Origin: Nonomuraea montanisoli
GTDB taxonomy: Bacteria; Actinomycetota; Actinomycetes; Streptosporangiales; Streptosporangiaceae
Reading direction: 5' to 3'
Assembly: GCF_013363975.1 (NCBI RefSeq)
Contig: NZ_JABWGN010000001.1
Span: forward strand, 620,001-684,000
Length of the DNA: 64,000 nt
Part shown: piece after piece, positions 27,644 through 45,119 of the stretch
Position numbering within the stretch: the stretch's first letter is position 1
Layout of the letters: each line of letters opens with the position of its first letter
Program-made: the position numbers and the translations under genes
Notes under the pieces: model-generated
What the model was told of the DNA's origin: nothing
Database searches by the model: none
The model's input: the letters and a program-made list of their open reading frames with translations, nothing else

Positions 27644-28153
27644 GTGCTCAGACAGGTCCACGACGACGATCTGCCGGTCATGCTCCGCTGGCGCAACCAC
27701 CCGAAGGTCCGCGCGGCCAGCTTCACCACCCATGCGATCGGCGAGGAGGAGCACGCCCACTGGTGGGCCGGGGTGCGCGCCGACCCCTCCCGGCGGGTGC
27801 TCGTCTACGAGCACGGCGGGACCGCCTGCGGCGTGGTGACCTTCTCCGGGCTCTCCCCGGAGCGGCCGGTCGCCTCCTGGGGCTTCTACCTCGACCTCGA
27901 CGGGCTGGAGCGGTCGGGCGGGCTGATCTCCGCATGGTTCGGGATCGAGCGTGACGCGATCGACCACGCCTTCGGGCCGCTCGGGCTGACGACCCTGCGG
28001 GGCGAGGTGCTGGCCGGCAACCGGCCGGTCCGCCTCCTGCACAGCCGCTTCGGCTTCGAGGAGACCGGCGGCTACCGCCGCGTCATCGACGGCGAGACCG
28101 TGGACGTGGTGACCGTCGAGGTCACCCGCGCGTCCCGAGAGGAGCGGGCATGA
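27644..28153 (+). CDS. pseH: PseH-like N-acetyltransferase (pseudaminic acid pathway)
   Basis: A GNAT protein of 169 residues resembling PseH, which acetylates the 4-amino group of UDP-4-amino-4,6-dideoxy-AltNAc using acetyl-CoA. Seen are the N-terminal LRQVHDDDLPVMLRWRNHPKVR, HAHWWAGV, and a late EVLAGNRPVRLLHSRFGFEETG, the usual GNAT helix-strand end. The GTG start has GAGGAGG four bases upstream. Its end overlaps the pseI start by four bases. The assignment rests on family resemblance plus the five other Pse genes beside it. Confidence 0.83.
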   Translation: MLRQVHDDDLPVMLRWRNHPKVRAASFTTHAIGEEEHAHWWAGVRADPSRRVLVYEHGGTACGVVTFSGLSPERPVASWGFYLDLDGLERSGGLISAWFGIERDAIDHAFGPLGLTTLRGEVLAGNRPVRLLHSRFGFEETGGYRRVIDGETVDVVTVEVTRASREERA

Positions 28154-29262: not shown

Positions 29263-30228
29263 TCACCGCAGGGCGAGGAGCGCGTCGGCGACGCGCTCGC
29301 GGCCCTTGCCGTCCACGAGGCCGCTGCCCCGCCTGCCGTACTCCTCGCGCAGCGCCGGGTCGGCGAGCAGCCGGGTCAGCATCTCGGTGGCGACGGCGCC
29401 GGGCGCGGGGCCGAGCCCGGCCGCGATGCCGCCGCCCACCAGCGCCTCGTAGCCGATGAGCTGGTTGCCGGTCACCCAGGTCAGCGCGGCCGGCACCCCG
29501 AGGTAGAGCAGCTCCCAGATGGTCGAGCCGGCGGCGGTGAGCACGAGGTCGGCCTCCGACATGAGCTCGGGCAGCCGGTCGGTGGGCGGGATGACGGTGA
29601 TCGGCCCGTCCGCCGCGAACGGCCGCGGGCTCACCACCGTCGCGCGGAACGGCACGCCGGTCGCCACCAGCGCCTCGGCCCAGGCCGGCGTCACGCCCGC
29701 GCTGTCGGTGCCGCCGAAGAAGCACAGCACGCGCGGCACGTCACCGCGCGGCCCGGCCGTCCGGCGCAGCCTGCGGACGCTGTCGCGCAGCAGCGCGTAG
29801 CGCACCCCGGCCAGCCGCTCGGCGAGCAGCGGGAACGGCCGCAGCTCGGCCCCGAGGTTCTGGTCGAGGTAGACGTCGGCCTCCTGGCCGAGCGGGTCGC
29901 CGTCGACGATCGCCAGCACGGCCGCGCCCGTCCGCCTGACCCGGGCGCCCGTGCCGGGGGCCAGGTCGTACGAGTCGAGCACGACCACGTCGAGGCGCAG
30001 GTCGCCCACCAGCTCCGCGAGCCGCCCGGGCGCGGCGGGGGCCGGGACGAGCGGCAGGCCGCGCGCCAGGAGCTGGGCCCGCGCCCACGCCGAACCGGCC
30101 AGATCGCCCAGGAAGCTGACCTCGACGCCGCGCCCGCGCAGCTCCTCGGCGAGCGCCACGCAGCGCACCAGGTGGCCGACGCCCCTGCCGGCGCCGGCGT
30201 CGCAACGGACGCCGACCCGGCCGATCAT
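29263..30228 (-). CDS. pseG: PseG-like UDP-sugar hydrolase
   Basis: A protein of 321 residues with a GT-B-like fold, resembling PseG, which removes UDP from UDP-2,4-diacetamido-trideoxy-altropyranose. The N-terminus (VGVRCDAGAGRGVGHLVRCVALAEEL) has the GxGHxxRC loop with the catalytic histidine. CFFGGTD and LVLTAAGSTIWELLYLGVPA follow. The ATG overlaps the pseF stop by four bases. A long upstream reading frame in this phase is only a shadow of pseF. Confidence 0.88.
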   Translation of the reverse strand: MIGRVGVRCDAGAGRGVGHLVRCVALAEELRGRGVEVSFLGDLAGSAWARAQLLARGLPLVPAPAAPGRLAELVGDLRLDVVVLDSYDLAPGTGARVRRTGAAVLAIVDGDPLGQEADVYLDQNLGAELRPFPLLAERLAGVRYALLRDSVRRLRRTAGPRGDVPRVLCFFGGTDSAGVTPAWAEALVATGVPFRATVVSPRPFAADGPITVIPPTDRLPELMSEADLVLTAAGSTIWELLYLGVPAALTWVTGNQLIGYEALVGGGIAAGLGPAPGAVATEMLTRLLADPALREEYGRRGSGLVDGKGRERVADALLALR

Positions 30229-30953
30229 GCCTCCTGCAGCGCTTTCTGCTGGACGTGCGCGTTGAGCCGGCAGATCTCCGGCCGGGCGCGCAGCCAGCCC
30301 ACGAGCGTCGCGTACGGCACGCACCGGTCGCCGAAGGCGGCCACCACCCGCGAGATGAGCGCCCAGTCGTCCTCGGTGTCGAGCGTGACGCGCAGGTCGG
30401 CGGCCGGCGGGGCGTAGGCCAGGCCGAGCAGCCGCGACGCGCCCGGGTGCGTGTAGACGTAGGAGGTGACGTGGACGCGGTGGTGGGCGGTCGCCTCCCG
30501 CCCGGCCCGCGCGAGCGCCTGCCCGCTCACGATCTCCACGTCGAGGCCGCGGGGCAGGGTGCGGGTCAGGCTCGTGCTCAGGTAGTCGAGGCCCGGCACC
30601 GCCCGGTGGACCAGCGCGGCCTCGCGGACGATCGCCGGGTCGAGCAGCGGGCAGTCGGCGGTGAAGCGCATCACCGCGTCGGCCGGGTGGAGCTCCAGCG
30701 TCTGCTGGAAGCGGCCGAGCACGTCGTCCACCGGCCCCCGGTGCCAGGCGAGGCCGAGCCGCAGGCACTCGGCCACCACGGCGTCGTCGGCGGGCTCGGT
30801 CGTGGTGGCGACCACCAGCTCGTCCACCGCGTCCGCCTGCCGCACGGCCCGCGCCACCCAGCTCAGCACCGACCGGCCGCCCAGGTCGCGCAGGACCTTG
30901 CCCGGCAGGCGCGTGGACCCCGTCCGTGCCTGAATGATTCCGACAATCCGCAC
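30225..30953 (-). CDS. pseF: PseF/SpsF-like cytidylyltransferase
   Basis: A protein of 242 residues. The nucleotide-binding start MRIVGIIQARTGSTRLPGKV is the CMP-sialate-synthetase-type signature, followed by FTADCPLLDP. It activates pseudaminic acid to the CMP-sugar used by the glycosyltransferase. It is the first gene of a pseF-pseG unit and divergent from pseB, with about 100 bases between them. The late HHRVHVTSYVYTHP and LRVTLDTEDDW segments are usual for the SpsF subgroup. Confidence 0.88.
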   Translation of the reverse strand: MRIVGIIQARTGSTRLPGKVLRDLGGRSVLSWVARAVRQADAVDELVVATTTEPADDAVVAECLRLGLAWHRGPVDDVLGRFQQTLELHPADAVMRFTADCPLLDPAIVREAALVHRAVPGLDYLSTSLTRTLPRGLDVEIVSGQALARAGREATAHHRVHVTSYVYTHPGASRLLGLAYAPPAADLRVTLDTEDDWALISRVVAAFGDRCVPYATLVGWLRARPEICRLNAHVQQKALQEA

Positions 30954-31057: not shown

Positions 31058-32044
31058 GTGAGCATTCTGAGCGGATCGTCCGTACTGATCACCGGAGGCA
31101 CGGGGTCCTTCGGCAAGGCCTTCATCCGCCATGCCCTGCACGTCCTCGACGTGCGGCGGCTGGTGGTCTTCTCCCGCGACGAGCTCAAGCAGTGGGAGTC
31201 GCGCCAGACGTTCGGCGACGACCGGCGGCTGCGCTGGTTCATCGGCGACGTGCGCGACCGCGACCGGCTCACCCGCGCCATGCACGGCGTCGACTTCGTG
31301 GTCCACGCCGCGGCGCTCAAGCAGGTCGACACCGCCGAGTACAACCCGTTCGAGTACGTCCGCACCAACGTCACCGGCTCGCAGAACGTCGTCGAGGCCG
31401 CCATCGACAGCGGCGTGCGCAAGGTCGTCGCCCTGTCCACCGACAAGGCGTCCGGCCCGGTCAACCTGTACGGCGCGACCAAGCTCGTGGCCGACAAGCT
31501 GTTCGTGTCGGCCAACCACTACGCGGCCGGCCACGCCACCCGCTTCGCGGTCGTGCGCTACGGCAACGTGGTGGGCAGCCGCGGCTCGGTGGTGCCGTTC
31601 TTCCAGCGGCTCGCCGCCGAGGGCGCCAGCCTGCCGATCACCGACAAGCGCATGACCCGGTTCTGGATCACCCTCGACCAGGCGGTGCGCTTCGTCGTCG
31701 ACTCCTTCGACATCATGCGCGGCGGCGAGCTGTACGTGCCGCGCATCCCCAGCATGCGCATCACCGACCTGGCCGAGGCCGTGGCGCCGTACGCCCCCGT
31801 CTACGAGGTCGGCGTCCGGCCCGGCGAGAAGCTGCACGAGGAGATGATCGGGCCCGACGACGGCCGCCGCGCGCTGCGGCTCGGCGACCGCTACGTCGTC
31901 CGGCCCGCCATCGCCACGTGGGGCTACGAGCCGCCGGCCGACGGCGAGCCGCTGCCCGACGGCTTCGCCTACCGCTCCGACACCAACGACCTGTGGCTGT
32001 CGGCCGACGAGCTGCGCCGCATGCTCGCGGACGGCCGCTGGTGA
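31058..32044 (+). CDS. pseB: UDP-GlcNAc 4,6-dehydratase (inverting) PseB
   Basis: A protein of 328 residues of the extended SDR family. The Rossmann loop is LITGGTGSFGKAF. The PseB-type catalytic set STDKA and NLYGATKL is present, as is HAAALKQVDTAEYNPFE. It catalyses the first step of the pseudaminic pathway, removing water from UDP-GlcNAc and inverting C5. It starts at a GTG preceded by GGGGGTCAC. It is followed directly by pseC through a GTGA overlap. Confidence 0.94.
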   Translation: MSILSGSSVLITGGTGSFGKAFIRHALHVLDVRRLVVFSRDELKQWESRQTFGDDRRLRWFIGDVRDRDRLTRAMHGVDFVVHAAALKQVDTAEYNPFEYVRTNVTGSQNVVEAAIDSGVRKVVALSTDKASGPVNLYGATKLVADKLFVSANHYAAGHATRFAVVRYGNVVGSRGSVVPFFQRLAAEGASLPITDKRMTRFWITLDQAVRFVVDSFDIMRGGELYVPRIPSMRITDLAEAVAPYAPVYEVGVRPGEKLHEEMIGPDDGRRALRLGDRYVVRPAIATWGYEPPADGEPLPDGFAYRSDTNDLWLSADELRRMLADGRW

Positions 32045-33165
32045 TCCCCTACGGCCGGCAGTCGATCGCCGAGGACGACGTGCGGGCCGTCGCCGAGGTG
32101 CTGCGCGGTGACTGGCTGACCACCGGGCCGGCGGTCACCGCGTTCGAGGCCGGGCTGGCCCGCTGGACCGGCGGCGTCCCCTGCCTGGCCGTCACCTCCG
32201 GCACCGCCGCCCTGCACGTGGCCTACGCCGCCGCCGGCGTCGGCCGGGGCGACGAGGTCGTCACCTCGCCGCTGACGTTCGTGGCCACCGCCGCCACGGC
32301 CGCGCTGCGGGAGGCGCGGGTCGTCTTCGCCGACGTCTGCGACGACACCGGCAACCTCGACCCCGATGCCGCGGGCGCGGCGGTCACCGGCCGCACGAGG
32401 GCGGTCACCGCCGTCGACTACGCCGGCCACCCCGCCGACTACGACGAGCTGCGCGCCCTCGCCGACCGGGCCGGGGCGCTCCTCGTCGGCGACGCCGCCC
32501 ACTCCCTCGGCGCCTCCTACAAGGGCCGGCCGGTGGGGTCGCTGGCCGACGTCACCACGTTCTCGTTCTTCGCCACCAAGACCGTCACCACCGCCGAGGG
32601 CGGCGCGCTGGCCCTGCCCCACGGCGAGCGGTTCGCCCGCGCGGCGCGCTTCCGCAACCACGGGCTGGTGCGCGACCCGGCCGAGCAGCGCGACCCCGGC
32701 CACGGCGGCTGGCACCAGGAGGTGCACGACTTCGGCCTCAACTACCGGCTTCCCGACGTGCTGTGCGCGCTCGGCCTGAGCCAGCTCGGGCGGCTGCCCG
32801 CATTCCTGGCGCGCCGCGCCGAGCTGGTGGCCCGCTACGACGCGCTGCTGGCCGGGGTGCCCGGACTGCGGCTGCCGGAGCGACGGCCGTACGTGGAGCC
32901 GGCCTGGCACCTGTACCCCGTGCGGATCGGCGGGGGGCGCAGGCGCGAGGTGTACGACCGCATGCGGGCGGCCGGCATCGGGGTGCAGGTCAACTACATC
33001 CCGGCGTACTGGCATCCCGTGTTCGAGGACCTCGGCTACCGGCGCGGCATGTGCCCGCGGGCCGAGGCGTACTACGCGGAGGAGCTGTCGCTGCCGCTCT
33101 TCCCCGGCCTCACCGACGCTCAGCAGGACCGGGTCGTGGAGTGCCTGCTGGCCATCCTGGTCTGA
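32041..33165 (+). CDS. pseC: PLP-dependent aminotransferase PseC
   Basis: A protein of 374 residues of the DegT/DnrJ/EryC1 family. The conserved start (IPYGRQSIAEDDV, RGDWLTTGPAV), SGTAALHVAY, GDAAHSLGA and the PLP lysine in FSFFATKTVTTAEGG are visible. It aminates the 4-keto product of PseB with glutamate as donor. The GTG start overlaps the pseB stop, so the pair is co-translated. It ends eight bases from the convergent GT2 gene. Confidence 0.93.
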   Translation: MIPYGRQSIAEDDVRAVAEVLRGDWLTTGPAVTAFEAGLARWTGGVPCLAVTSGTAALHVAYAAAGVGRGDEVVTSPLTFVATAATAALREARVVFADVCDDTGNLDPDAAGAAVTGRTRAVTAVDYAGHPADYDELRALADRAGALLVGDAAHSLGASYKGRPVGSLADVTTFSFFATKTVTTAEGGALALPHGERFARAARFRNHGLVRDPAEQRDPGHGGWHQEVHDFGLNYRLPDVLCALGLSQLGRLPAFLARRAELVARYDALLAGVPGLRLPERRPYVEPAWHLYPVRIGGGRRREVYDRMRAAGIGVQVNYIPAYWHPVFEDLGYRRGMCPRAEAYYAEELSLPLFPGLTDAQQDRVVECLLAILV

Positions 33166-33173
33166 CGGCCGTT

Positions 33174-35081
33174 CTACCTCTGGTTCTCCATCGGCGGGCA
33201 GTGCTCCACCAGCATCAGGCAGCCGTCGTCGCCCCGGTCGGCCACGAACCTGCGGCCCGCCACGGTCGCGGCCGGGCGGGCCCGGGTCCGTACCAGCGGG
33301 CGGAGCTTCCTGCCCTGGTCGAGCAGGACGTCCCAGCGCGGCACCCGGCCCACGGGCGGCTCGATGTCGCCGAGCCGGATCCGGCCGCTGAAGACGTGAC
33401 CGTCCAGGGTGGCCGGGAAGTAGACCTCCTCGCCGTCGCCGCGCCGGATCAGCCGCAGCACCGGCTCGCCGTCGCCCGGGTCGGTCAGCTCGCCCGCCAC
33501 CAGCAGGTCGCCGCCCTCGATCCGGCACTCGCCGATCAGCGCCTCGGCGCCGCGCACCCGCAGCCCCCACACCCCCTTGCCGGCCCGTACGGGCACCAGC
33601 CAGGACCCCGCGCGGCGCACCGGCGGCGGCACCGCCGGAGGCAGCCATCGGGGCCCCGCGACCTTCGCCTCCAGCCGCAGCCCACCGGCCCGCAGCTCGA
33701 CGCGCAGCTCCCAGTGACCGCGCCGGGCCAGCCGCGCCGGTGACAGCGTGGCGGGGTCGAAGGCGAAGCCGAACGGGAAGCCGTGCTCGGCCGCCACCCC
33801 GCCGTCCTCCTGGGGGAGGCCGAGGCTGGCCGGCATCACCCTGTCCTCCGACAGGGGCACGGTGTCGCCCGTGCAGCGTTCCCGGAGCCACACGCGGACG
33901 CGGGCGCGTCCCAGGCTCCGCGCGTCGAACCGGCCGACCGACATCCAGCCCTCGCCGCGCAGCAGGCCGTCCCGCCAGCCGGTGGACAGCAGCCGCGTCT
34001 CCAGGTCGAGCTCGTCGGTCACCTCCGACAGGTGCGCGGGCAGGGCGGGATGCCGGCCGTACCAGCGCCTGCCGCCCAGCCCGAACCCCGTGGAGGCGAG
34101 CGGCGGCCGCAGACGGCCCTCGCGCTCCTCCGCGTACACCGCCGCCAGCTCCTCCACCCGTCGCCGGTGCAGCAGGTGCGTCAGCAGCCTTCGCCGGTAC
34201 GGCAGGCTCAGCCAGTCCTCCGGGGCGACGCCGTCGAGGTAGCGGGCCGCGAGGTCCAGGAGCGCCGGGTCGGTCGCCGGCCCCGTGCGGGCCACCGCCG
34301 CCACCGCCACGCTCATGTCGATGTCGAGGGTGTCGCGGTCGAAGCGCCGCTTGACGCCCGGCGCCCGGCGGGCGAGCAGCGTGGCCGTCTCCAGCACCGA
34401 CAGCAGGCGGTCGCGCACGTTGCCCGGCTCCAGGCTGCGCTGGGTGACCGACCAGTCGCGCCGGCGCCAGTGGTAGACGACGGCCTTCAGAACGTCCACC
34501 GAGGTCGCGCCCACGTGCGCGGCCATGGCCACGGGCTGGTCCTCGTACAGGCGCTCCGGGAACGTCAGGGCGAGGGCGTCCCAGAAGGAGCGCCGGTAGA
34601 CCTTGTTCCACAGCATGCGGTCGCGGACCAGCAGCGGGTGGCGGGTGATGTGGGTCCGCTCCAGCCGCCTGGCGAACGCCTGCCGGTGCGCCCACGACGG
34701 CACGAGCTGGTCGCGGTGGAGGCGCATGACGTTGCCGCAGGCCAGGTCCGAGCCGGTGGACTCCAGTGACGCCACCAGGCGGCGGAACGCGTCCCGGGGC
34801 ACCAGGTCGTCGCCGTCCACGAACGCCAGGTAGCGGCCGGTCGCGTGCCGCACGCCGAGGTTGCGCGCCCGTCCCACGCCGCCGCCGGCCTGCCGGACGA
34901 GGCGCACGCGAGGGTCGGCCGCCCACCTGGCCTCGACCACGGCCGGCCCGCCGTCACGGCTGCCGTCGTCGACGCAGATCACCTCGATGTCGCGCAGCGT
35001 CTGCGTGGTCAGCGAGTCGAGGCAGGGGCCGAGGTACTCCTCGACGTCGTGGAACGGGACGACCACCGACAGGATCGGCAC
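33174..35081 (-). CDS. Large GT2-family glycosyltransferase
   Basis: A protein of 635 residues. Residues 1-250 are a GT-A domain (LSVVVPFHDVEEYLGPCLDSL, VICVDDGSRDGG, FVDGDDLVP), similar to the GT2 at 26037-27485. It includes WNKVYRRSFW and the YEDQPVAMAAHV counterpart. The remainder is about 370 residues of charged, beta-strand-rich sequence with no motif I recognise. It may be a carbohydrate-binding or assembly part. It is likely in one unit with the two upstream minus-strand genes. The sugar donor is unknown. Confidence 0.87.
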   Translation of the reverse strand: MPILSVVVPFHDVEEYLGPCLDSLTTQTLRDIEVICVDDGSRDGGPAVVEARWAADPRVRLVRQAGGGVGRARNLGVRHATGRYLAFVDGDDLVPRDAFRRLVASLESTGSDLACGNVMRLHRDQLVPSWAHRQAFARRLERTHITRHPLLVRDRMLWNKVYRRSFWDALALTFPERLYEDQPVAMAAHVGATSVDVLKAVVYHWRRRDWSVTQRSLEPGNVRDRLLSVLETATLLARRAPGVKRRFDRDTLDIDMSVAVAAVARTGPATDPALLDLAARYLDGVAPEDWLSLPYRRRLLTHLLHRRRVEELAAVYAEEREGRLRPPLASTGFGLGGRRWYGRHPALPAHLSEVTDELDLETRLLSTGWRDGLLRGEGWMSVGRFDARSLGRARVRVWLRERCTGDTVPLSEDRVMPASLGLPQEDGGVAAEHGFPFGFAFDPATLSPARLARRGHWELRVELRAGGLRLEAKVAGPRWLPPAVPPPVRRAGSWLVPVRAGKGVWGLRVRGAEALIGECRIEGGDLLVAGELTDPGDGEPVLRLIRRGDGEEVYFPATLDGHVFSGRIRLGDIEPPVGRVPRWDVLLDQGRKLRPLVRTRARPAATVAGRRFVADRGDDGCLMLVEHCPPMENQR

Positions 35082-35159: not shown

Positions 35160-37019
35160 TCAGCGGGTCAGGAGGCGCAGGACCTTGCGGGCGGCCCGGC
35201 GCGGGCGGGACAGGCGGCGCGACAGCCGGTACCCGAGCGTCCGGCGCAGCGTGGCCGCCTTCCGCTGGCTCTTGCGCAACTTGGCGCGGGTGCGCACCAG
35301 CTCGCGCTCGCGGTAGCTCAGCTTGGTCTCCAGGCGCGCGATCCGGGCCAGCGAGGCGGTGAGCTGCTCGGTCACCCGGTCACGGGCGCTCAGCAGGTCC
35401 CGGTAGGTGGGGGCGGCCCCGGCCAGTTCGGCGGGCCCCACGGGTTGCCCCAGCTCGGCCTCCAGCTTGCGGGCCCGGTCGAGGTCGTCCTGGTCGCAGG
35501 TCTGACCGGCCATGCCGCAGAGCGTCAGCGCGAGCTGCCCGGCGTCGAGCGGCCACGGCCACGGATGGTGGTGTCCGGCCGCGAGCAGCCGTACGGCGAA
35601 CCGCCACAGGATCCGGCAGAGCACCACGGGCACGGACTCCGGACTGCCGGGGGCGGGGACCGGGGTGATGGCGGTGAACCGCTCGCCGTCCCAGACGAGG
35701 TTGTCGGCGGGGGCGTCCCCTCCGTCGGCCACCCACGCGGCCAGCGCGGCCAGCAGGTCGCGGACCGCGCGCACGTCCTCGCGGGCGCACGCCTCGACCA
35801 GCACCTCCTCGACGATGCGGCCGCGCGGGATGGGGCGCGCGGTCCCGCCGGGCAGGCGCCTGGTGGAGGTGGCGGTGACCTCGTGCACGGCCCGGCCGAC
35901 CTCGACCAGCCCTTCCGGCAGGACGTCGCGCGGGGCGTCGGCCACGGCCGCCGGCTCGCGGGCGTCCTCGACGGCGACGTCCGGCGCGCAGGCGTGCTCT
36001 GCCACGACGTCCGACGCGTAAGGCCCTTCTTCCGCAGACGCGACGCCCGGCTCTTCCGCAGGCGCGACGCCCGGCGCGTAAGGAGCCTCGTCGATCCCGG
36101 CGCCTGCCTCGTACGGCCCCTCCTCGGCGGCCGCGACGCCCGGCTCGTAAGAACCCTCCTCGGCCTCCGCCCCGTGAGGCCCGTCCTCGGCGGCGGAGCT
36201 TCGGGGGCGGGTCGCCACCGTGAGCCAGAGCGGCGCCAGGTGCTCCCCGAGCCCGTGGCGGAACGCCAGCCGGGTCAGCCGCAGCGGGTCCGCCACGAGC
36301 ATGGTGTCGCCGCCAGGCGCCGTGAGCGGCACCGTGAGCGCCTCGGGCAGGTCCTCGCGCAGGAGTTCACGTCCGAACAGGGCACGGGGCGCGCACCGTG
36401 ACGGGTAGGCGGCGTAGCACCGCTCGGCCACGACCCCCACCGCCTCCAGAGCCGCGTCCAGGGCCTCCGGACCGCCGGGATGGCTGGGGTCGAAGCCGTG
36501 CGGCTCCCAGTGCCCGTCGGCGCCCTCACGGTCGGGCGGCCGGGCATCCACGAACCGGTCGACGCCGAGGTCGTTCGGCACCGCGAGGACGAGCCGCCCG
36601 CCCGGCGCCACGAGCGCGGCGAGGGCCTGGAGCGACGCCCGCCACGGCGGCGCCGGCTCCTCGGCGGAGTGCGTGCGTTCGAGCCCGTCCAGGGCCAGCA
36701 CCAGGTCGTACGGCTGGACCCCGGTGAGCGCCCGGAGCCGTCCGCAGTGAACGTCCAGCGCGGGGTGACGCTCGCCGAGGGCGCACGCGTCGGGGTAGGA
36801 CCGCACGAGCACGGCCACCGAGGAGGCGGTGCCGGACACCGCGCCGATGAGGCCCTTCGGGTGCGGACCGGCCACCAGCACCCTCCCGCCGGGAGGGACG
36901 AGCCGCCGGACCAGTTCGAGCCCGGCGCCGCGCCAGTCGGTGACCGCGTCGGCGTCGGACCACAGCAGCATCTCGCCGCCGATCAATCGGACATTGCCGG
37001 GCACCTCGGTCATGCGCAT
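35160..37019 (-). CDS. Methyltransferase-like protein with repeat linker and coiled-coil tail
   Basis: A protein of 619 residues with three parts. Residues 1-270 resemble a class I SAM-dependent methyltransferase (PPGGRVLVAGPHP, YDLVLALDGLE, LVAPGGRLVLAVPNDLG). Residues of about 276-340 are an acidic repeat (AEEGSYEPG, AEEGPYEAG, IDEAPYAPG, AEEGPYASD). The rest holds a domain with NLVWDGERFTAI and a basic coiled coil (RIARLETKLSYRERELVRTRAKLRKSQRK). The kinase-like NLVWDGERF suggests a degenerate phosphotransferase. An ATG at 37013 overlaps the upstream stop (ATGA) and may be the true start. Confidence 0.7.
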   Translation of the reverse strand: MRMTEVPGNVRLIGGEMLLWSDADAVTDWRGAGLELVRRLVPPGGRVLVAGPHPKGLIGAVSGTASSVAVLVRSYPDACALGERHPALDVHCGRLRALTGVQPYDLVLALDGLERTHSAEEPAPPWRASLQALAALVAPGGRLVLAVPNDLGVDRFVDARPPDREGADGHWEPHGFDPSHPGGPEALDAALEAVGVVAERCYAAYPSRCAPRALFGRELLREDLPEALTVPLTAPGGDTMLVADPLRLTRLAFRHGLGEHLAPLWLTVATRPRSSAAEDGPHGAEAEEGSYEPGVAAAEEGPYEAGAGIDEAPYAPGVAPAEEPGVASAEEGPYASDVVAEHACAPDVAVEDAREPAAVADAPRDVLPEGLVEVGRAVHEVTATSTRRLPGGTARPIPRGRIVEEVLVEACAREDVRAVRDLLAALAAWVADGGDAPADNLVWDGERFTAITPVPAPGSPESVPVVLCRILWRFAVRLLAAGHHHPWPWPLDAGQLALTLCGMAGQTCDQDDLDRARKLEAELGQPVGPAELAGAAPTYRDLLSARDRVTEQLTASLARIARLETKLSYRERELVRTRAKLRKSQRKAATLRRTLGYRLSRRLSRPRRAARKVLRLLTR

Positions 37020-37852
37020 CGCACCCGCTTCCAGCCGAACATTCGCTGCAGCTCCTCAGGTGTCGCCTGATAGTCGAATCCCAGCTCCCGTAGCGCGGCC
37101 TCGGCGGCCAGGCCACGGTCGACGTGCTCGCCGTGCAGCTCAGGCCAGAGCCGCATGCGACGGGCCGTACCTCCGTATTCGGGGCGTTCGCCCTCGAACT
37201 GCATCGGATCGCCGTACACGGCGATGTCGCAGCCCACCGACGCGCCGTAGAACAGCGCGCTGCCGAGCCGGTTGGAGGCCACCCTGCGGTGACGGCGCAG
37301 CTCGGTGAGCTGGCGCCGCAGGAAGTCGCGTCCGGTGTCGTCCCATCGGGAACCGCGGCTGCCGTGGCAGATGACGCGGAATCCGGCCGACTCGTACGCC
37401 CCCCTGATACCGATATTTGCGAATTCGAGCCAGTAAAGGCATACGGTCACCGGACCGCTTTCCACCTCGCGGATGTACGCGGCGAGCCGGCCGTGGTCGC
37501 CGATCACCGCATTCTTCTCCCAGCCGTGGAACGGATACCAGATCGTGCCTTCCCGCTCTTCTTCCGGCACAAGACCCAGATCGGGCTCCAGGGCGAGGAG
37601 GTAGATCCACGGCGCGCCGATGAGGTAATGGCCGCGGCGGCCCATCGACCAGCCGCGCCGACGCAGCACGTCGGCCCAGATGAACCGGGGATATCCCGGT
37701 GTGCACCAATGGTCGTTCGGTGGGTATCCGTGGAGATAGTTCCAGCCATGCTGGACGAATCCCTGTATGCGGCGGGGAACGTCGTCCGGGAGCCCGCAGT
37801 ATCGGGCGAGTATGCGGGAGTGCCCGTACCAGTGATTGGATTCGTCCATCAT
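37010..37852 (-). CDS. Unknown protein, GT-B-like features, in the Pse locus
   Basis: A protein of 280 residues that I do not firmly recognise. It has HGWNYLHG near the N-terminus and a Trp/Tyr-rich first half. Late in the sequence SNRLGSALFYGASVGCDIAVYGDP resembles the donor-site segment of GT-B and sialyltransferase-like enzymes. Visible GC content is clearly lower than that of the neighbours, suggesting separate acquisition. It overlaps the methyltransferase-like gene by about four bases. With a complete CMP-Pse pathway and no obvious Pse transferase nearby, it is a candidate for that role. AGGGGG lies before two consecutive ATG codons; the second (37849) is better spaced. Confidence 0.6.
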   Translation of the reverse strand: MMDESNHWYGHSRILARYCGLPDDVPRRIQGFVQHGWNYLHGYPPNDHWCTPGYPRFIWADVLRRRGWSMGRRGHYLIGAPWIYLLALEPDLGLVPEEEREGTIWYPFHGWEKNAVIGDHGRLAAYIREVESGPVTVCLYWLEFANIGIRGAYESAGFRVICHGSRGSRWDDTGRDFLRRQLTELRRHRRVASNRLGSALFYGASVGCDIAVYGDPMQFEGERPEYGGTARRMRLWPELHGEHVDRGLAAEAALRELGFDYQATPEELQRMFGWKRVRCA

Positions 37853-38012: not shown

Positions 38013-38258
38013 ATGGGCCACCTCGACCGCCTGCGCGGCGTCTTCCGCGCCGCGCTGAGCCTTCCGGACGGCGCCGACGTCGACGAGCTCGAATACCGGG
38101 CGATCCCGCAATGGGACTCCCTTGCCCACATGGCGCTGGTCGCCGCCATCGAGGACGAGTTCGACATCATGCTCGAAACGGACGAGATCATCGACATGAG
38201 CTCGTTCGCCCAGGCGGCACGGCTGCTGGAGAAGCACGGTGCCGGCGCCGCGTTCTGA
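38013..38258 (+). CDS. Acyl carrier protein
   Basis: A protein of 81 residues. The phosphopantetheine attachment serine lies in WDSLAHMALV, and the acidic helix around IEDEFDIMLETDEI is typical of carrier proteins. It holds an acyl group as a thioester. GAGGGAG precedes the ATG. It opens the acyl cassette (SDR, AMP-ligase, LuxE-like, LuxC-like) and is divergent from the low-GC unknown gene. This is not the fatty-acid-synthase ACP context, so it is probably dedicated to the glycan pathway. Confidence 0.9.
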   Translation: MGHLDRLRGVFRAALSLPDGADVDELEYRAIPQWDSLAHMALVAAIEDEFDIMLETDEIIDMSSFAQAARLLEKHGAGAAF

Positions 38259-39075
38259 CCCATCGCCCGGCCGGGCCGCCGACGGCGACGACAAGGCCGT
38301 CGACGAGGCGATCGCGGCCCCGGTCCCGACGGCCGGCACCTCGCGAGTGGCGCTGGTCACCGGCTCGACCTCCGGCATCGGGCGAGCCGTCGCCGTGGCG
38401 CTCGCCGCGGCCGGTGACGAGGTGATCGTCCACGGCCGCGACGCCGAGCGGGCCGCCAAGGTCGCCGCGGAGGTGGCCGCCGAGACCGGCGGACGCACCT
38501 GGTCGGTCCACGGCGACGTGGCCGACCCCGGCGCGGTGTCCAGCATGATGCGCCGGATCCGCGAACGCCACGGCCGCCTCGACGCACTCGTGGTCAACGC
38601 GGGCGCCCACGACGCGGCGCTGCTCGGCCTGCTGCCCGGCATGGCGGTGTCCCGGCTGTTCGACGTCAACGCGGTGGGCGCGGTCCACACCCTGCAGTCG
38701 GCGATCAGGCTGCTGCGCAGGGGCACGAGCCCCGCCGTGGTGCTGGTCTCCTCGATCATGGCCCGGCGCGGTTCGGTGGGCCAGGCCGTCTACTCCGCCA
38801 CCAAGGCCGCGCTGCTGGGCCTGACCGTGTCCGCGGCCAAGGAGCTCGGCCCCGCCGGCATCCGGGTCAACGCGGTGGCCCCCGGCTTCGTGGAGACGGC
38901 CATGCTCGCCACGCTCGACGACCGGGCCCGCGCCACGACCGTCGCCGCCACCCCGCTCGGCCGGGTGGGGCAGCCGCGCGAGGTCGCCGCCGCCGTGGCG
39001 TTCCTGCTCTCCGGCCACGCCTCGTTCGTCACCGGCCAGGTGCTCGGTGTCGACGGCGGGCTGGTGGTGCTGTGA
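38239..39075 (+). CDS. SDR-family 3-oxoacyl reductase-like (FabG-like)
   Basis: A protein of 278 residues from a GTG inside the ACP gene (20-base overlap, GGAG eight bases upstream). Classical SDR motifs are present: TGSTSGIG for NADP, NAGAHD, the catalytic Ser in VSSIMA, the YSATK motif, and the C-terminal GQVLGVDGG. It likely reduces a ketoacyl group on the neighbouring ACP. The first 30 residues before the Rossmann fold are low-complexity. The IS200/IS605 element follows immediately. Confidence 0.87.
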   Translation: MPAPRSDPSPGRAADGDDKAVDEAIAAPVPTAGTSRVALVTGSTSGIGRAVAVALAAAGDEVIVHGRDAERAAKVAAEVAAETGGRTWSVHGDVADPGAVSSMMRRIRERHGRLDALVVNAGAHDAALLGLLPGMAVSRLFDVNAVGAVHTLQSAIRLLRRGTSPAVVLVSSIMARRGSVGQAVYSATKAALLGLTVSAAKELGPAGIRVNAVAPGFVETAMLATLDDRARATTVAATPLGRVGQPREVAAAVAFLLSGHASFVTGQVLGVDGGLVVL

Positions 39076-39084
39076 GGTCCCGAC

Positions 39085-39240
39085 ACGGTGACTCCTCCGC
39101 TCCCTGAAGCGAGCGGCTTCTCGCTAAGCCGCTCGCGCGACCCGGCGAAGGGCAAGCCCTGCCCTCAAGATGTTGATCGCCGCGTTGACGTCGGCGTGCG
39201 CTTCGTAGCCGCACTGTTGACATCGGAACTCGGCTTGAGT
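39085..39240 (-). ncRNA. Candidate reRNA (omega RNA) at the tnpB 3' end
   Basis: TnpB proteins are guided by an RNA made from the 3' end of tnpB and the right end, with the guide taken from flanking DNA. Here the perfect right-end hairpin overlaps the tnpB stop exactly where this RNA is expected. The boundaries are estimates from the family; no transcript evidence exists. Confidence 0.4.
39109..39136. other. Right-end hairpin of the IS200/IS605 element
   Basis: A perfect 11-base stem (GCGAGCGGCTT at 39109-39119 and AAGCCGCTCGC at 39126-39136) with a six-base loop, overlapping the tnpB stop. TnpA recognises such imperfect or perfect hairpins near the ends. Confidence 0.75.
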
Positions 39241-40326
39241 GACGCGGTTCTCCCTCGCACAATGCCCGCACTCGGCGCACGTACGGGAGGTGTTGGCAGG
39301 ATTCACCGCGATCAGCTCTCGACCGGCGCTTTCAGCCTTGTGCGACAGGATCGTCAGGAACACCCCCCAACCCGCGTCCAAGATCGAACGGTTCAGCCCG
39401 GACTTCGCAGCGGCGCCGTTGGGCAGATAGCCGCCGTTGCCGTCCGGTTTGGGTGCTGCCCGCTTGGTCATATTGGTGACTTTGAGTGCTTCGTGCACGA
39501 TCAGGTCATAGCCGGCCACCAGCGCCTTGGCTGCTTTATGCGCGGCATCCAGACGCTGGCGGCGCACCTTGGCGTGCAGGGCCGCAACGCGGGCCACAGT
39601 CTTGCGACGTCTGTTCGAACCCCGCTTCTTGCGGGCCAGGCCACGCTGCGCGGCCGCGAGAAGGCCGGCGGAGGCGGCGAAGTGCCGTTTGTGCTCCAGA
39701 TGGTCGCCGTCGCTGGTGGTGGCGAGCGAGGCGACGCCCATGTCGATCCCGGCCATGGCACCCGTAGCGGGCAATGCTTCGGCGGGAACGTCGTCGCACG
39801 ACAGCACCACGAACCAGCGGGAGGCCTCATGCTTGACGCTGATCGTCTTGATGTTGCCCAGCACGCGGCGATGCTGGTGCACCCGGACGTGGCCGATCCC
39901 CTGAAGCCGCACGTAGATGGTGACCGGGTGATGGGGCTGGGAGTCCCACCGGCAGCCGTCCCCGTCCTTGGGCCATTCGACGGTGTCGTACCATCCCCGT
40001 CCCTTGAAGCGGGGAAAGCCCGGTGTCCGTCCCGCCTTGACCCGGGCGAAGAACATGGCGAACGCCTTGTCAAGCCGGCGCAGGGTGGCCTGTTGGGAGG
40101 AGAAGGACCAACGCGCTTGGCCACCTGGATCGTCGGCTCGGATGTGCTTGAGGTCGGCCGACTGGTCGCCGTAGCGGACTGTGACGCCCGCCTTGCGGTA
40201 GGCGATACGGCGATGCTCCAGTGCGGCGTTGTACAGCTGCCGGTGGTCCTCCAGGCAGTGCGCGAGCGCGGCGGCCTGCTTGCTGGTGGGGCGCAGCAGG
40301 AATTTGAACGACCTACGCATTGCCAC
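39124..40326 (-). CDS. tnpB: TnpB RNA-guided nuclease (IS605 OrfB family)
   Basis: A protein of 400 residues. The RuvC-like residues are all present: Asp in AGIDMGVASL, Glu in DLIVHEALKV, and Asp in HADVNAAINIL. The zinc finger is CAECGHC then CQQCGY. The N-terminal helix-turn-helix (FKFLLRPTSKQAAALAHCLEDHRQLYNAALEHR) is typical. TnpB cuts DNA with an RNA guide from the element end and helps the element persist. Its start overlaps the tnpA end by 14 bases. The catalytic set suggests an active enzyme. Confidence 0.93.
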   Translation of the reverse strand: MAMRRSFKFLLRPTSKQAAALAHCLEDHRQLYNAALEHRRIAYRKAGVTVRYGDQSADLKHIRADDPGGQARWSFSSQQATLRRLDKAFAMFFARVKAGRTPGFPRFKGRGWYDTVEWPKDGDGCRWDSQPHHPVTIYVRLQGIGHVRVHQHRRVLGNIKTISVKHEASRWFVVLSCDDVPAEALPATGAMAGIDMGVASLATTSDGDHLEHKRHFAASAGLLAAAQRGLARKKRGSNRRRKTVARVAALHAKVRRQRLDAAHKAAKALVAGYDLIVHEALKVTNMTKRAAPKPDGNGGYLPNGAAAKSGLNRSILDAGWGVFLTILSHKAESAGRELIAVNPANTSRTCAECGHCARENRVTQAEFRCQQCGYEAHADVNAAINILRAGLALRRVARAA

Positions 40327-40735
40327 CGCCCTTGGACGGCCGTTCGTACTGCGTGTCGATGTAGCGCTGCACAGTCTCAGCGGTCACGGCGCCGGCCGTG
40401 GCCACGAAGTAGGACCTCGACCACAACGTGGGCAACCGGGAACGCAGGTGGCCGAACTCGGCCCGCAGGTGGTGGGAGGTGAACCCCTTGAACTGGTTGG
40501 CCACGTACGACGGAGAGTTCTTCGGGTGCGGCTTGACGAACAGGTGCACGTGGTCGGGCATCACCTCAAGCACCACGATTTCCCAGCCGTGCTCGTCAGC
40601 CTTGGCGTGGATCAACTGCTCCAGGCGCGTCTTGACCCGCCCGCCAAGGACCGGGCGGCGATACTTCGGGCACCACACGACGTGGTAACCCAGGTCGTAC
40701 GCCGCGCCGGGGGAGGTGCGCACCCGACTAGCCAC
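40313..40735 (-). CDS. tnpA: IS200-type Y1 transposase TnpA
   Basis: A protein of about 140 residues from the GTG at 40735, the usual size. The HUH metal motif is in VMPDHVHLFVKP, and the nucleophile tyrosine is in VQRYIDTQ. YHVVWCPKYRRPVL is the family's conserved start. It excises and inserts single-stranded DNA. The longer upstream reading frame reaches into the left end of the element and the next gene's leader and is not credible. Confidence 0.92.
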   Translation of the reverse strand: MASRVRTSPGAAYDLGYHVVWCPKYRRPVLGGRVKTRLEQLIHAKADEHGWEIVVLEVMPDHVHLFVKPHPKNSPSYVANQFKGFTSHHLRAEFGHLRSRLPTLWSRSYFVATAGAVTAETVQRYIDTQYERPSKGGGNA

Positions 40736-40851
40736 GCGATCAATATAACAGCGTGACGCATCTAATACGCGATGGACGGAGTTCTTTGATGCGCAGACCA
40801 GAAAGGTCAGGGCACGCTCAGGCCTTGACGGCCCTCCCGCTCCCGATTCCC

Positions 40852-40871
40852 CCGTCGCCTGAAGGCGACGG
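40852..40871. other. Left-end hairpin of the IS200/IS605 element
   Basis: A perfect eight-base stem (CCGTCGCC and GGCGACGG) with a TGAA loop, upstream of tnpA and only 18 bases before the AMP-ligase start codon. Confidence 0.72.
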
Positions 40872-40889
40872 TTCACTCGGGAGGACTTG

Positions 40890-42203
40890 ATGGATGGTTT
40901 CCCGCACCCTGACGCGCGGCTCGTCGTCGCCGGAGAGCCGGGCGAGCTCACGGGCGACCTGCTGGCCGCACGCGTCGAGCGCACCGCGCAGGTGCTCGCG
41001 GGTCTGCCGCCGGGCCCGGTGTTCTGCGGCATGCGCAACGACCTGGCGTCGGTGGTGCGCTACCTCGCCGCGTGGCGGACCCGCAGGCCGGTGGCTCTGC
41101 TCGACCCCGACCTCTCGGCGGGGGCGCTGACCGGGCTGATCCGGAGGTTCCGGCCGGCGGCGCTGTTCGGGTTCGCCCACGCCGTGGAGAGCGCGCCGCG
41201 CGGGCGCCGCGACGCCGACGATCCCCATCCGGACCTGGCCGTCCTGCTCGCCACCTCGGGCTCGACCGGCAGCCCCAAGCTCGTGCGCCTGTCGCGCCGG
41301 GCCGTGCTGTCCAACGCCACGGCCATCGCCACCGCCCTGGCCATCGAGCCCGGCGACGTCGCGCCGACGAGCCTGCCGCTCTACTACAGCTTCGGGTTGT
41401 CGGTGCTCAACAGCCATCTGGCAGCGGGGGCCACGGTGGTCCTGACCGACGCGGGCCTGCTGGAGCGGTCGTTCTGGACCCACCTCGACGCCCACGGCTG
41501 CACGTCGCTCGCGGCCGTGCCGTACCAGTACGAGATGCTGCGCAGGCTCGGCTTCGACGCCAAGGAGCACCCGACGCTGACCACGCTCACACAGGCGGGC
41601 GGCCGGTTGCGTCCGGAGCTCGTGACGGAGTTCTCCGGCAGGGCCGACCGGTTCTTCGTCATGTACGGGCAGACGGAGGCGACGGCGCGTGTCGCGGTCC
41701 TGCCGCCGGACCGGCTGGCCGCCAAGCCGGGCTCGGCCGGGGTCGCCGTTCCTGGTGGCCGGCTCAGCGTGGCCGACGGCGAGATCGTGTACGAGGGGCC
41801 CAACGTGATGATGGGCTACGCGGAGACGGCCGCCGACCTGGCCAGGGGCGACGACCTGGGCGGCGTGCTGCGCACCGGCGACCTCGGCCACCTCGACGAC
41901 GAGGGCTTCCTCTACCTCACCGGGCGGATGAAACGCATCGCCAAGATCTTCGGTGTGCGGGTCAGCCTGGACGACGTCGAGGGGCTGCTGCGCGACTGCG
42001 GGCCGGTGGCGGTGACCAGCGGCGACGACCGGGTCACGGTGTGGGCCGAAGGGCTCGACCGCGACGCGTGCGCCCGCCTCGCCCGCCGCCTCAGCACGGA
42101 GCTGCGGTTGCACTGGAGCGGCTTCGACGTCCGCGCCGTGGACCGTCTCCCGCTGCTGACCACGGGCAAGGTCGACTACGGCGCGCTGGAGGCACGGACA
42201 TGA
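40890..42203 (+). CDS. AMP-dependent acyl synthetase/ligase
   Basis: A protein of 437 residues of the ANL family. Core motifs are LLATSGSTGSPK (A3), YGQTEATARV (A5), RTGDLG (A7), RIAKIFGVRVS (A8) and TTGKVDY with the catalytic lysine (A10). It activates a carboxylic acid with ATP and likely loads it onto the nearby ACP or CoA. It is slightly shorter than typical acyl-CoA ligases. The ATG at 40890 has GGAGG six bases upstream; this ribosome site lies at the IS border and may be part of the element. Confidence 0.88.
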   Translation: MDGFPHPDARLVVAGEPGELTGDLLAARVERTAQVLAGLPPGPVFCGMRNDLASVVRYLAAWRTRRPVALLDPDLSAGALTGLIRRFRPAALFGFAHAVESAPRGRRDADDPHPDLAVLLATSGSTGSPKLVRLSRRAVLSNATAIATALAIEPGDVAPTSLPLYYSFGLSVLNSHLAAGATVVLTDAGLLERSFWTHLDAHGCTSLAAVPYQYEMLRRLGFDAKEHPTLTTLTQAGGRLRPELVTEFSGRADRFFVMYGQTEATARVAVLPPDRLAAKPGSAGVAVPGGRLSVADGEIVYEGPNVMMGYAETAADLARGDDLGGVLRTGDLGHLDDEGFLYLTGRMKRIAKIFGVRVSLDDVEGLLRDCGPVAVTSGDDRVTVWAEGLDRDACARLARRLSTELRLHWSGFDVRAVDRLPLLTTGKVDYGALEART

Positions 42204-42258
42204 GTCCGCGGAGGGGCGGCCGGACCGCCGCCGGTCCCCCGAGGCGCGGGGAGACCGC

Positions 42259-43512
42259 ATGAGCGTCTTCACGCTGACGGCGGACGACCGGGAGTGGGCG
42301 TTGGTGCCCCGGCTGGCCGAGCTGACCGAGCGGCACCGGCACGCCTGCCCGCCGTACGGGCGGATCCTGGCGGCGATCGGGTCGCACGGGCCGTACGAGC
42401 GCGTGGCGGACCTGCCGTGGCTGCCGGTGCGGATGTTCAAGACGCACGAGCTGCGCAGCGTGCCCAAGGAGGAGGTGTTCCGGGTGCTCACCTCCAGCGG
42501 CACGACCGGGCAACGGCCCAGCCGTGTCCACCTCGACCGGCACGCCGCGGCGGCGCAGCCGCGCATGCTGGCGGCGACGCTGCGGGAGGTGCTCGGCGAG
42601 CGGCGGCTGCCCATGCTGATCGTCGACACCCGCTCGGTCGTACGCGCCGCCACACTGAGCGCGCGTGGCGCCGGGGTGCTCGGCATGATGAACCTCGGTC
42701 GCGACCACACCTTCGTGCTGGACGACGGCGGCGAGGTGGACGCGGCGGCGGTGCAGGCGTTCCTGGCGCGGCACGGCGGCCGGCCGTTCCTGATCTTCGG
42801 GTTCACGTACATGGTGTGGCTGCACCTGCGCGAGCTGGGGCTCGACCTGTCGCGCGGCGTGCTGATCCACTCCGGCGGGTGGAAGAAGCTGGCCGAACGG
42901 GCGGTGGACGCGGCGGAGTTCCGCGGGCGGCTGGCGAGCGAGTGCGGGCTGACCCGCATCCACGACTTCTACGGCATGGTGGAGCAGATCGGCACGATCT
43001 TCCTGGAGGGGCCGGAGGGAGACGGGCTGTACTGTCCCGACTTCGCCGACGTGGTGATCCGCGACCCGGAGACGTGGGAGGAGGCGCCGCCGGGCGTTCC
43101 CGGGCTGATCGAGGTGGTCAGCACGCTGCCGACGTCGTACCCGGGGCACGTGCTGCTGACCGAGGACCTGGGGGTGATCCACGGGGTGGACGACGGCATC
43201 TGGCCGGGCAAGCGCTTCTCGGTGCTGGGCCGGCTGCCGCGCGCGGAGGCACGGGGGTGCAGCGACACTATGGGCGCACCGACGGGCGGGGCGTCGGACG
43301 CGATCATGGGCGACTCGTGGGGCGGGTCGATGGTGGCGCGGACGCCTCCGCAAGCGCCTCCGCAGACACCTCCGCAAGCGCCTCCGCAGGCATCTCCGCA
43401 GGCGTCTCCACAGGCGAACGGGCGCGATGCCGCCGCGGACAGGCCGATGCCGCCGACGTCTCCGCGAACGTCCGAACGTGGTGACGCCACGGACGGGACG
43501 GCGGCCGCATGA
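42259..43512 (+). CDS. LuxE-like acyl-protein synthetase
   Basis: A protein of 417 residues. Residues 1-337 match the LuxE acyl-protein synthetase family: VLTSSGTTGQ for AMP binding, LIFGFTYMVW, LIHSGGWKK, FYGMVEQIGTIF, and the ending RGCSDT. In bioluminescence LuxE activates a fatty acid and hands the acyl group to LuxC. Here it sits in a glycan cluster. Residues 341-417 are an added low-complexity tail with PPQA repeats. Its stop overlaps the LuxC-like start (ATGA), so the two are co-translated as partners. Confidence 0.86.
   Translation: MSVFTLTADDREWALVPRLAELTERHRHACPPYGRILAAIGSHGPYERVADLPWLPVRMFKTHELRSVPKEEVFRVLTSSGTTGQRPSRVHLDRHAAAAQPRMLAATLREVLGERRLPMLIVDTRSVVRAATLSARGAGVLGMMNLGRDHTFVLDDGGEVDAAAVQAFLARHGGRPFLIFGFTYMVWLHLRELGLDLSRGVLIHSGGWKKLAERAVDAAEFRGRLASECGLTRIHDFYGMVEQIGTIFLEGPEGDGLYCPDFADVVIRDPETWEEAPPGVPGLIEVVSTLPTSYPGHVLLTEDLGVIHGVDDGIWPGKRFSVLGRLPRAEARGCSDTMGAPTGGASDAIMGDSWGGSMVARTPPQAPPQTPPQAPPQASPQASPQANGRDAAADRPMPPTSPRTSERGDATDGTAAA
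43345..43416 (+). repeat. 12-nt coding repeat (PPQA) in the LuxE-like tail
   Basis: Repeats of CCTCCGCAAGCG-like units encode PPQAPPQTPPQAPPQASPQA at residues 363-386, beyond the conserved LuxE domain. Confidence 0.85.
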
Positions 43513-45119
43513 CGGGCGACGCCGACCCCACCCCCGCACGGGCCCCTGAAGAGGGGTCCGACGGCGTGCGGTACCGCTCCGAGCAGGGCGCCGGCTCGCG
43601 ATCCCGCTTTGACGGCGGCGCCGGGGCGCGATCACTCTCGGAGGGGGCGGTGGACGTGCGGTTTCCCTTTGAGGGCGCCGTCGGCGTGTGGGAGCTGCTT
43701 GACGACATGGCCGCTGCGCCGAGGCTGGTCGTGGGCGACGAGCGGATGCGGGCGTTCCTTGAGGACGTCGGGCGGAGGCTGCGGGCGCCCGAGGTGGCGC
43801 GGCGGCATCCCGAGCTGGCGTCCCTCGGATTCTTCCTGCGGCGGAGCGAGCTGGAGCGAGCGGCGGGCCTGCCGCGAGGCGACGAGCCGCGGCAGACCGG
43901 CGCGGCCGGGGCCGGGGAGTTCTTGCGGGTGCCGCGTGGCTTGGTGTTCCACGTCGCTCCGGCGAACGTCGACACCGTCTTCGTCTACTCCTGGGCCCTT
44001 TCCGCCCTCATGGGCAACCGCAACGTCGTCCGGCTGTCGGCACGCGCGGGCGGAGCGGCCGAGGCGATCCTCGACATCATGCGCCAGGCGCTCGACGACG
44101 CCGATCCGGTCGTGGCCCGCACCCAGCGCATCGTTTCCTACGAGCACCACAGGGCCGCCCCGCGCAAGAGCCACGCCGAGCCCTTCTCCAAGCAGCTCGA
44201 ACGCCCCACCGCCGCTGACCAGGCCCTGGACCACCGTCAGACCGACTCCACCAACCACGCTTCCGTCGATCACTCCCAGAGCGACCACGACCGCCACGAC
44301 TCCGGCAAACAGCCTCGAACCGGCTCCGTCAGTCACCCCCAGCCCGTCGCCTCCACGGCCCCCGGTCCCGGGAATGCGGCGGGACCCACAGCGGTGCTGT
44401 CGGCGGCGTGCGACCTGCGGGTGATCTGGGGCGGTGACCGTACGGTGAACGAGATCCGCCGGCACCCGCTGGCCCCGCACGCCCTCGATCTCGCCTTCCC
44501 CGACCGGTCGTCGTTCGCGGTGATCCGCGCGCGGGCGTGGCTGGAGGCGACGCCCGCGACGCGGGAGGCGGTGGCCGACGGGTTCGCGGTCGACGCGTAC
44601 TGGTTCGACCAGGCCGCCTGTTCCTCCCCCGGCACCGTCTTCTGGGTGGGCTCCCCCACCGAGTGTCACGTGGCCCGCGACGGGTTCGCCGCGTGTCTGG
44701 CGGAGGCCGTGGCCCGGCGCGGGTGGACGGTGGACACGGCGATGGCCGTCGAGAAACGGGTGGCCGCGTACGGGCTGGCGGCCGACGGCGTGGCGGACGC
44801 GGTCGAGTTCCGCGGGAACGTCCTGGCCCAGGTGATCCTGACGACGCCCGGCGTGGCTCCGCGGCGGTGGCTCGGCACGGGAACGTTCGCGCACGCCCGG
44901 CTCAGCTCGCTCGATGAGCTGGCGGACGTGGTGCGGCGCAAGGATCAGACGCTGACGCACTTCGGGTTCGCCCGCGAGGAGCTGGCCGGGCTGGCTCGGG
45001 CGCTGGGCGGGCGCGGGCTGGACAGGATCGTGCCGATCGGGAAGGCGCTGGGGTTCCACCGGGTGTGGGACGGCGTCGACCTGCCGGCCGAGTTCTCCCG
45101 CCTGGTGACCATCCAGTAA
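43509..45119 (+). CDS. LuxC-like acyl-CoA/acyl-protein reductase with inserted segments
   Basis: A protein of 536 residues, larger than usual LuxC. The conserved reductase fold is seen in VPRGLVFHVAPANVDTVFVYSW, GNRNVVRLSARAGG, AACDLRVIWGGDRTVNEIR and the catalytic Cys371 in WFDQAACSSPG. LuxC reduces an acyl thioester to the aldehyde with NADPH. Two additions stand out: a 10-residue repeat (four copies, residues 21-60) and a His/Ser/Asp-rich insert (about 214-293) between conserved segments. The insert lies at a loop position, so activity may be kept. It is the last gene of the acyl cassette. Confidence 0.85.
   Translation: MTGDADPTPARAPEEGSDGVRYRSEQGAGSRSRFDGGAGARSLSEGAVDVRFPFEGAVGVWELLDDMAAAPRLVVGDERMRAFLEDVGRRLRAPEVARRHPELASLGFFLRRSELERAAGLPRGDEPRQTGAAGAGEFLRVPRGLVFHVAPANVDTVFVYSWALSALMGNRNVVRLSARAGGAAEAILDIMRQALDDADPVVARTQRIVSYEHHRAAPRKSHAEPFSKQLERPTAADQALDHRQTDSTNHASVDHSQSDHDRHDSGKQPRTGSVSHPQPVASTAPGPGNAAGPTAVLSAACDLRVIWGGDRTVNEIRRHPLAPHALDLAFPDRSSFAVIRARAWLEATPATREAVADGFAVDAYWFDQAACSSPGTVFWVGSPTECHVARDGFAACLAEAVARRGWTVDTAMAVEKRVAAYGLAADGVADAVEFRGNVLAQVILTTPGVAPRRWLGTGTFAHARLSSLDELADVVRRKDQTLTHFGFAREELAGLARALGGRGLDRIVPIGKALGFHRVWDGVDLPAEFSRLVTIQ
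43569..43688 (+). repeat. 30-nt coding repeat in the LuxC-like N-terminus, 4 copies
   Basis: Four ten-residue units: RYRSEQGAGS, RSRFDGGAGA, RSLSEGAVDV and RFPFEGAVGV. The unit length of 30 bases matches the intergenic repeats in this window. Confidence 0.8.

Follow-up and report, generated by a model that had tools for sequence, protein, structure and literature searches.

A set of five genes encoding an ACP, a ketoreductase-like SDR, an acyl ligase, LuxE and LuxC has been described from flagellin glycosylation islands of Gram-negative bacteria. In Aeromonas, the set was published beside the pseudaminic acid (Pse) genes of 98 strains (PMC7874193); by their description, orf1-3, luxE and luxC of the Group II island resemble the locus studied here in the five gene types, their order as listed and the adjoining pse genes. 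Similar sets were published for about 70 enterobacterial strains (PMC4875605) and for Dickeya (PMC7575072), with acp, fabG, ligase, luxE and luxC together as in our locus; the Dickeya set, as described, lacks the pse pathway and has vioA and transketolase genes alongside. In addition, hydroxyacyl amides on bacterial amino sugars, including 4-hydroxybutyryl, are well established. Thus, although the initial annotation regarded this arrangement on a glycan as undescribed, the cassette belongs to an already known kind, and what is new here is its Gram-positive setting, which is absent from the published descriptions of the set that we considered.

Parts of the set also have counterparts elsewhere. 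GriC/GriD of Streptomyces griseus, an acyl-AMP-forming protein and a reductase, constitute a two-part carboxylic acid reductase that, by description, resembles the role proposed below for LuxE/LuxC in converting a carboxylic acid to an aldehyde without luciferase, but it acts on an aromatic substrate and to our knowledge has no ACP. In the R-group genes wfpC-wfpG of the Flavobacterium psychrophilum O-antigen (PMC6519341), a dedicated ACP and a reductase were proposed to provide the hydroxyacyl group that a PglD-like sugar N-acyltransferase uses, similar to our proposal; however, ketosynthases build the chain in that system, and LuxE/LuxC are not mentioned. The two enzymes of the light-emitting LuxC-LuxE fatty acid reductase (PDB 7xc6) align to the pair studied here, with the LuxE acyl-Cys and the LuxC catalytic Cys kept, whereas the partners of our pair are an ACP, an SDR and a ligase.

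The cassette and its neighbours in Nonomuraea montanisoli

The window, i.e., the whole stretch of 64,000 nucleotides that was analysed, derives from a genome of 9.76 Mb whose nearest relatives found were Nonomuraea species. The cassette occupies 38013-45119 in the order ACP-SDR-ligase-LuxE-LuxC. All five open reading frames lie where the initial annotation had placed them, and each has a family match, which bears out its claim that an ACP, a ketoreductase-like SDR and an acyl ligase accompany LuxE/LuxC:

38013-38258, + strand, ACP of 81 aa (PF00550, E = 0.00099; phosphopantetheine Ser36 in WDSLAHM)
38239-39075, + strand, FabG-like SDR oxidoreductase (PF13561, 1.4e-57)
39088-40889 (boundaries approximate), - strand, IS200/IS605-family insertion between SDR and ligase (PF07282/PF01385 and PF01797)
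39124-40326, - strand, TnpB (PF07282/PF01385)
about 40313-40756, - strand, TnpA (PF01797)
40890-42203, + strand, AMP-dependent acyl ligase of 437 aa (PF00501, 2.8e-41)
42259-43512, + strand, LuxE-like acyl-protein synthetase (PF04443, 4.6e-44)
43509-45119, + strand, LuxC-like acyl reductase (PF05893, 1.3e-22)

The ACP scored 19.8 bits against PF00550, slightly below the cut-off of 20.8; the real start of the SDR probably lies downstream of the listed GTG, and the ligase is presumed to load the acyl group on the ACP. As annotated, luxE and luxC overlap in an ATGA junction (43509-43512), and no luciferase was found among the window genes examined. Against the equivalog models of the long-chain enzymes, LuxE reached 58.9 bits (cut-off 550) and LuxC 25.1 bits (cut-off 750); judged by sequence, the former apparently acts as a LuxE distinct from the light-organ enzyme. 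Other LuxC-like matches in the same genome scored far more weakly than the cassette LuxC, and the one inspected, on C17, appeared by eye to be an aldehyde dehydrogenase.

The gene set of the initial annotation therefore stood, but its account of the cassette left unmentioned that an IS200/IS605 element splits the SDR from the ligase. Neither N. roseoviolacea (L031) nor N. rhodomycinica (L032), which are the closest relatives, has the element at the SDR-ligase junction, and its insertion in the window copy was thus probably a recent event. It may impair the expression of ligase-luxE-luxC in this strain.

The check for loss of catalytic residues suggested with the initial annotation was performed on 80 loci retrieved with the LuxE alignment, which were also the sample for the order and context counts below, and no loss was seen. 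The ACP Ser, the LuxE acyl-Cys and the ligase Lys were each present in 80 of 80 loci, and the LuxC catalytic Cys and the SDR Ser/Tyr/Lys in 79 of 79. The window LuxE aligns to LuxE of 7xc6 through the C-terminal Cys, with RGCSDT as the matching Cys motif, and LuxC aligns to its counterpart across the WGG and DQxAC motifs; from these alignments, the pair is apparently active. Both proteins also carry low-complexity regions, namely a proline-rich C-terminal extension in LuxE (43279-43509) and a lineage-specific insertion in LuxC (approximately residues 213-293, about 44145-44388). Their lengths vary in each close relative (LuxE, 378, 361 and 417 aa; LuxC, 528, 477 and 536 aa), as fast-changing in-frame additions.

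Pse pathway genes adjoin the cassette at 27.6-33.2 kb, and the following features were assigned in this part of the window:

20192-22861, fusion of GT2 and CDP-glycerol glycerophosphotransferase
27644-28153, + strand, PseH-like GNAT N-acyltransferase (TIGR03585, 83.5 bits, below the cut-off of 93.1), overlapping the pseI start
28150-29199, + strand, PseI, pseudaminic acid synthase (TIGR03586, 435 bits, above the cut-off of 340)
29263-30228, - strand, PseG-like protein, presumably of the PseG family, judged by where it lies and by its homology to the gene at the syntenic place in N. gerenzanensis
30225-30953, - strand, PseF-like CMP-sugar synthase (PF02348, 8.8e-23; PseF model weak, 22 bits)
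31058-32044, + strand, PseB, inverting UDP-GlcNAc 4,6-dehydratase (TIGR03589, 486.8 bits, above cut-off)
32041-33165, + strand, PseC, aminotransferase (TIGR03588, 393.7 bits, below the cut-off of 423.5)
33174-35081, - strand, GT2 glycosyltransferase (PF00535, 2.7e-33)
35160-37019, - strand, conserved 619-aa protein next to the cassette, with no Pfam match and methyltransferase-like only by eye
37010-37852, - strand, conserved 280-aa protein with no family match

PseB and PseI are thus above their cut-offs, while PseC, PseH and PseF fall below theirs but are in place. The low PseH score was considered as a sign of altered donor use and then dropped, as PseH-like proteins from other genomes of the same class also score below 93.1 bits. 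This GNAT is nevertheless a candidate acyltransferase partner of the cassette. The 619-aa and 280-aa proteins are both kept in most of the pse-context loci described below; for the latter, Foldseek weakly matched the AlphaFold model (pLDDT 74) to UDP-GlcNAc 2-epimerases of the GT-B fold (TM about 0.4), and on this basis it is a possible GT-B glycosyltransferase. N. gerenzanensis shows synteny over the block that runs from a sulfotransferase gene to luxC. Compared to the Aeromonas Group II island, which is Gram-negative, has flagellin as its target, places the cassette downstream of pseH and contains many glycosyltransferases, the window is from a Gram-positive organism, bears an IS element inside the set, and has in its neighbourhood the CDP-glycerol glycerophosphotransferase gene, which hints at a teichoic-type wall polymer.

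Distribution and genomic contexts of the cassette

The order ACP-SDR-ligase-LuxE-LuxC was kept in 79-80 of the 80 retrieved loci, which come from many actinobacterial genera, with an SDR match absent at a single locus (L056). Because of this shared order, and because dN/dS was below 1 in all five genes when compared to four relatives, the five genes occur together beyond chance. Within the genus, 45 of 55 genomes had LuxE and 46 had orthologous PseI, the two being together in 45 and both missing in the same nine; the single mismatch is a genome that is 63% complete (G033). This co-occurrence could reflect one block that was gained or lost together. In the phylum sample, 3 of 396 had the set, whose distribution is thus patchy.

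According to blast matches within 10 kb, 36 of the 80 loci were in a pse context, 35 were with an LpxA-like acyltransferase, 5 with a PseH-like GNAT and 4 were other or truncated, the last class being inflated by cut-off contigs. In Amycolatopsis, the ACP is directly preceded by a gene whose best match is acyl-ACP-dependent LpxA (172 bits, under the cut-off of 226) and which adjoins aminotransferase and UDP-GlcNAc 3-dehydrogenase-like genes, a trio that presumably resembles GnnA/GnnB/LpxA. The cassette neighbours a sugar acetyltransferase of the NeuD/PglB/VioB family in Deinococcus (above cut-off) and in Rhizobium (slightly below cut-off), and in Ponticoccus a PseH-like GNAT follows luxE. These N-acyltransferases represent several types that are unrelated or only distantly related. 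Thus, the recurring contexts (Pse, LpxA-like and GNAT) place the cassette beside sugar-amine N-acyltransferases. On the LuxE tree, at least two label changes for pse, at least six for LpxA-like and at least two for GNAT are required by well-supported branches; owing to long branches, it is unsure where Rhizobium, Ponticoccus, L115 and Deinococcus belong. The required changes indicate that the cassette became associated with different modules on more than one occasion.

Several individual loci depart from these patterns. In another actinobacterial family, an LpxA-like gene and the cassette lie beside what by eye is an apparent flagellin gene (L114:1-5932). The Rhizobium locus (L013:6336-14984) combines the cassette with two transketolase genes and a separate SDR. 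A second LuxE, 45% identical, occurs together with a LuxC next to a peptide synthetase-like gene in a Nonomuraea genome (L116:293-2825). In Pantoea, LuxE, LuxC and an SDR occur together without ACP or ligase, a group compatible with a reduction unit, and its LuxE is only about 27% identical.

Probable supply of an acyl group to an amino sugar and a possible route

Five enzyme types with invariant catalytic residues, repeatedly found next to a sugar aminotransferase and an N-acyltransferase, point to the cassette as a dedicated acyl-ACP supply for the N-acylation of an amino sugar, a role that we consider likely; since N-acyltransferases keep recurring as neighbours, acyl-ACP is the likely product. 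The sugar amine named as the target in the initial annotation is accordingly probable. Both the acyl group and the acceptor sugar are what we infer. In the window, Pse is on balance the favoured acceptor, and acyl supply joined to a Pse-pathway acceptor is likewise a reading to which we lean slightly. Against it, the PseH-like protein lies 10 kb away from the ACP, and a PseH using acetyl-CoA would account for Pse without the cassette. In the literature searched for teichulosonic acid or Pse acyl groups in actinobacteria, no structure was found.

As for the chemistry, we tentatively propose a reductive route to a hydroxy acid, with the order of steps and the substrates that we infer. LuxE would activate a small carboxylic acid and keep it as a thioester, LuxC would reduce the LuxE-held acyl group to an aldehyde, and the SDR would turn this aldehyde into an alcohol. 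The hydroxy acid so formed would then be loaded on the ACP by the AMP ligase, and the PseH-like enzyme would move the hydroxyacyl group from the ACP onto the UDP-sugar at its 4-amine, which later becomes N7 of Pse. With LuxE feeding the reduction and the ligase reloading the product, each of the two activating enzymes would have its own job. Our leading guess for the product is a C4 group, e.g., 4-hydroxybutyryl (from succinate) or dihydroxybutyryl (from malate). Against our reading stand L056, which has no SDR match, and Rhizobium with its two extra transketolase genes.

A possible trace of such a group comes from A. piscicola AH-3, in which the five genes lie downstream of pseH (PMC7874193) and the flagellin carries a Pse derivative of 376.14 Da together with a 102 Da moiety lacking explanation. 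Pse with acetyl and C4H6O3 (dihydroxybutyryl) was computed as 376.148 Da, and C4H6O3 itself, at 102.032, equals the 102 Da moiety; the data are from one strain, and 376.148 also fits two lactoyl groups or formyl and dimethylglyceroyl. The single monosaccharide on the AH-1 flagellin, a pattern reported for strains that have a Group I island, is 403 Da. The O-antigen of Yersinia ruckeri O1 carries 4-hydroxybutyryl, and this organism was considered as structural support and dropped: in its O1-specific gene list, the ACP, ligase and SDR genes lie at another locus and LuxE/LuxC are absent, which does not support a link between LuxE/LuxC and this group.

Other uses of the five genes have to be weighed against the same observations. 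The ligase might charge the ACP with a 3-oxo or precursor acid, from which the SDR would make 3-hydroxyacyl-ACP, with LuxE/LuxC left to a side role (hydrolysis, proofreading or acyl transfer). The SDR is nearest to FabG 3-oxoacyl-ACP reductases, 3-hydroxybutyryl amides are common on amino sugars, and the 3,5-dihydroxyhexanoyl group of Flavobacterium was proposed to arise from a dedicated ACP, ketosynthases and a reductase; however, the cassette has no ketosynthase, and it would go unexplained why 79 of 80 loci retain LuxE and LuxC with their active sites intact. In addition, the arginine at the FabG position that we presume to dock the ACP occurs in only 11 of 79 cassette SDRs, although this is weak evidence. 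We regard this use of the cassette as rather unlikely. Improbable, in our estimation, is that the LuxC aldehyde itself meets the sugar amine, or is extended by a transketolase, to yield an N-alkyl or C-branched sugar. LuxC is an aldehyde maker by homology and transketolase genes accompany the cassette in Rhizobium and Dickeya, yet there were no transketolase matches in the 80 actinobacterial loci; and since N-acyltransferases are recurring neighbours of the cassette in most contexts, the aldehyde fed directly to a sugar amine, as the initial annotation had it, is less likely than an amide formed from acyl-ACP.

It is very unlikely that the glycan receives a fatty acyl group or a fatty aldehyde to give a liposugar, a role put forward by the Aeromonas and Enterobacteriaceae authors (PMC7874193, PMC4875605) and in line with the long-chain acids used by light-organ LuxE/LuxC, as the Pse residue of AH-3 at 376 Da has room for small groups only. 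We give just as little weight to a pathway with no tie to a glycan. LuxE/LuxC homologues do occur in other clusters, e.g., with the peptide synthetase-like genes of L116, and a comparable reductase pair serves grixazone, but in distant taxa the cassette is repeatedly linked to genes for sugar aminotransferases and N-acyltransferases, and LuxE and PseI are jointly present or absent in the genus.

Returning to the reductive route, a LuxE/LuxC carboxylate reductase that turns succinate or malate into an ACP-loaded omega-hydroxy acid for Pse and other amino sugars is possible, although rather doubtful. If true, it would account for the 4-hydroxybutyryl and dihydroxybutyryl groups of sugars, for which we know of no biosynthesis. 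The cassette spans Gram-negative flagellin islands and many actinomycetes, and the comparison narrows its role to amino-sugar acyl supply, with the 376 Da Pse derivative of Aeromonas as a testable lead. Should the proposal hold, reductases of the luminescence type would enter surface glycan chemistry, and it would help to predict N-acyl groups from genomes.
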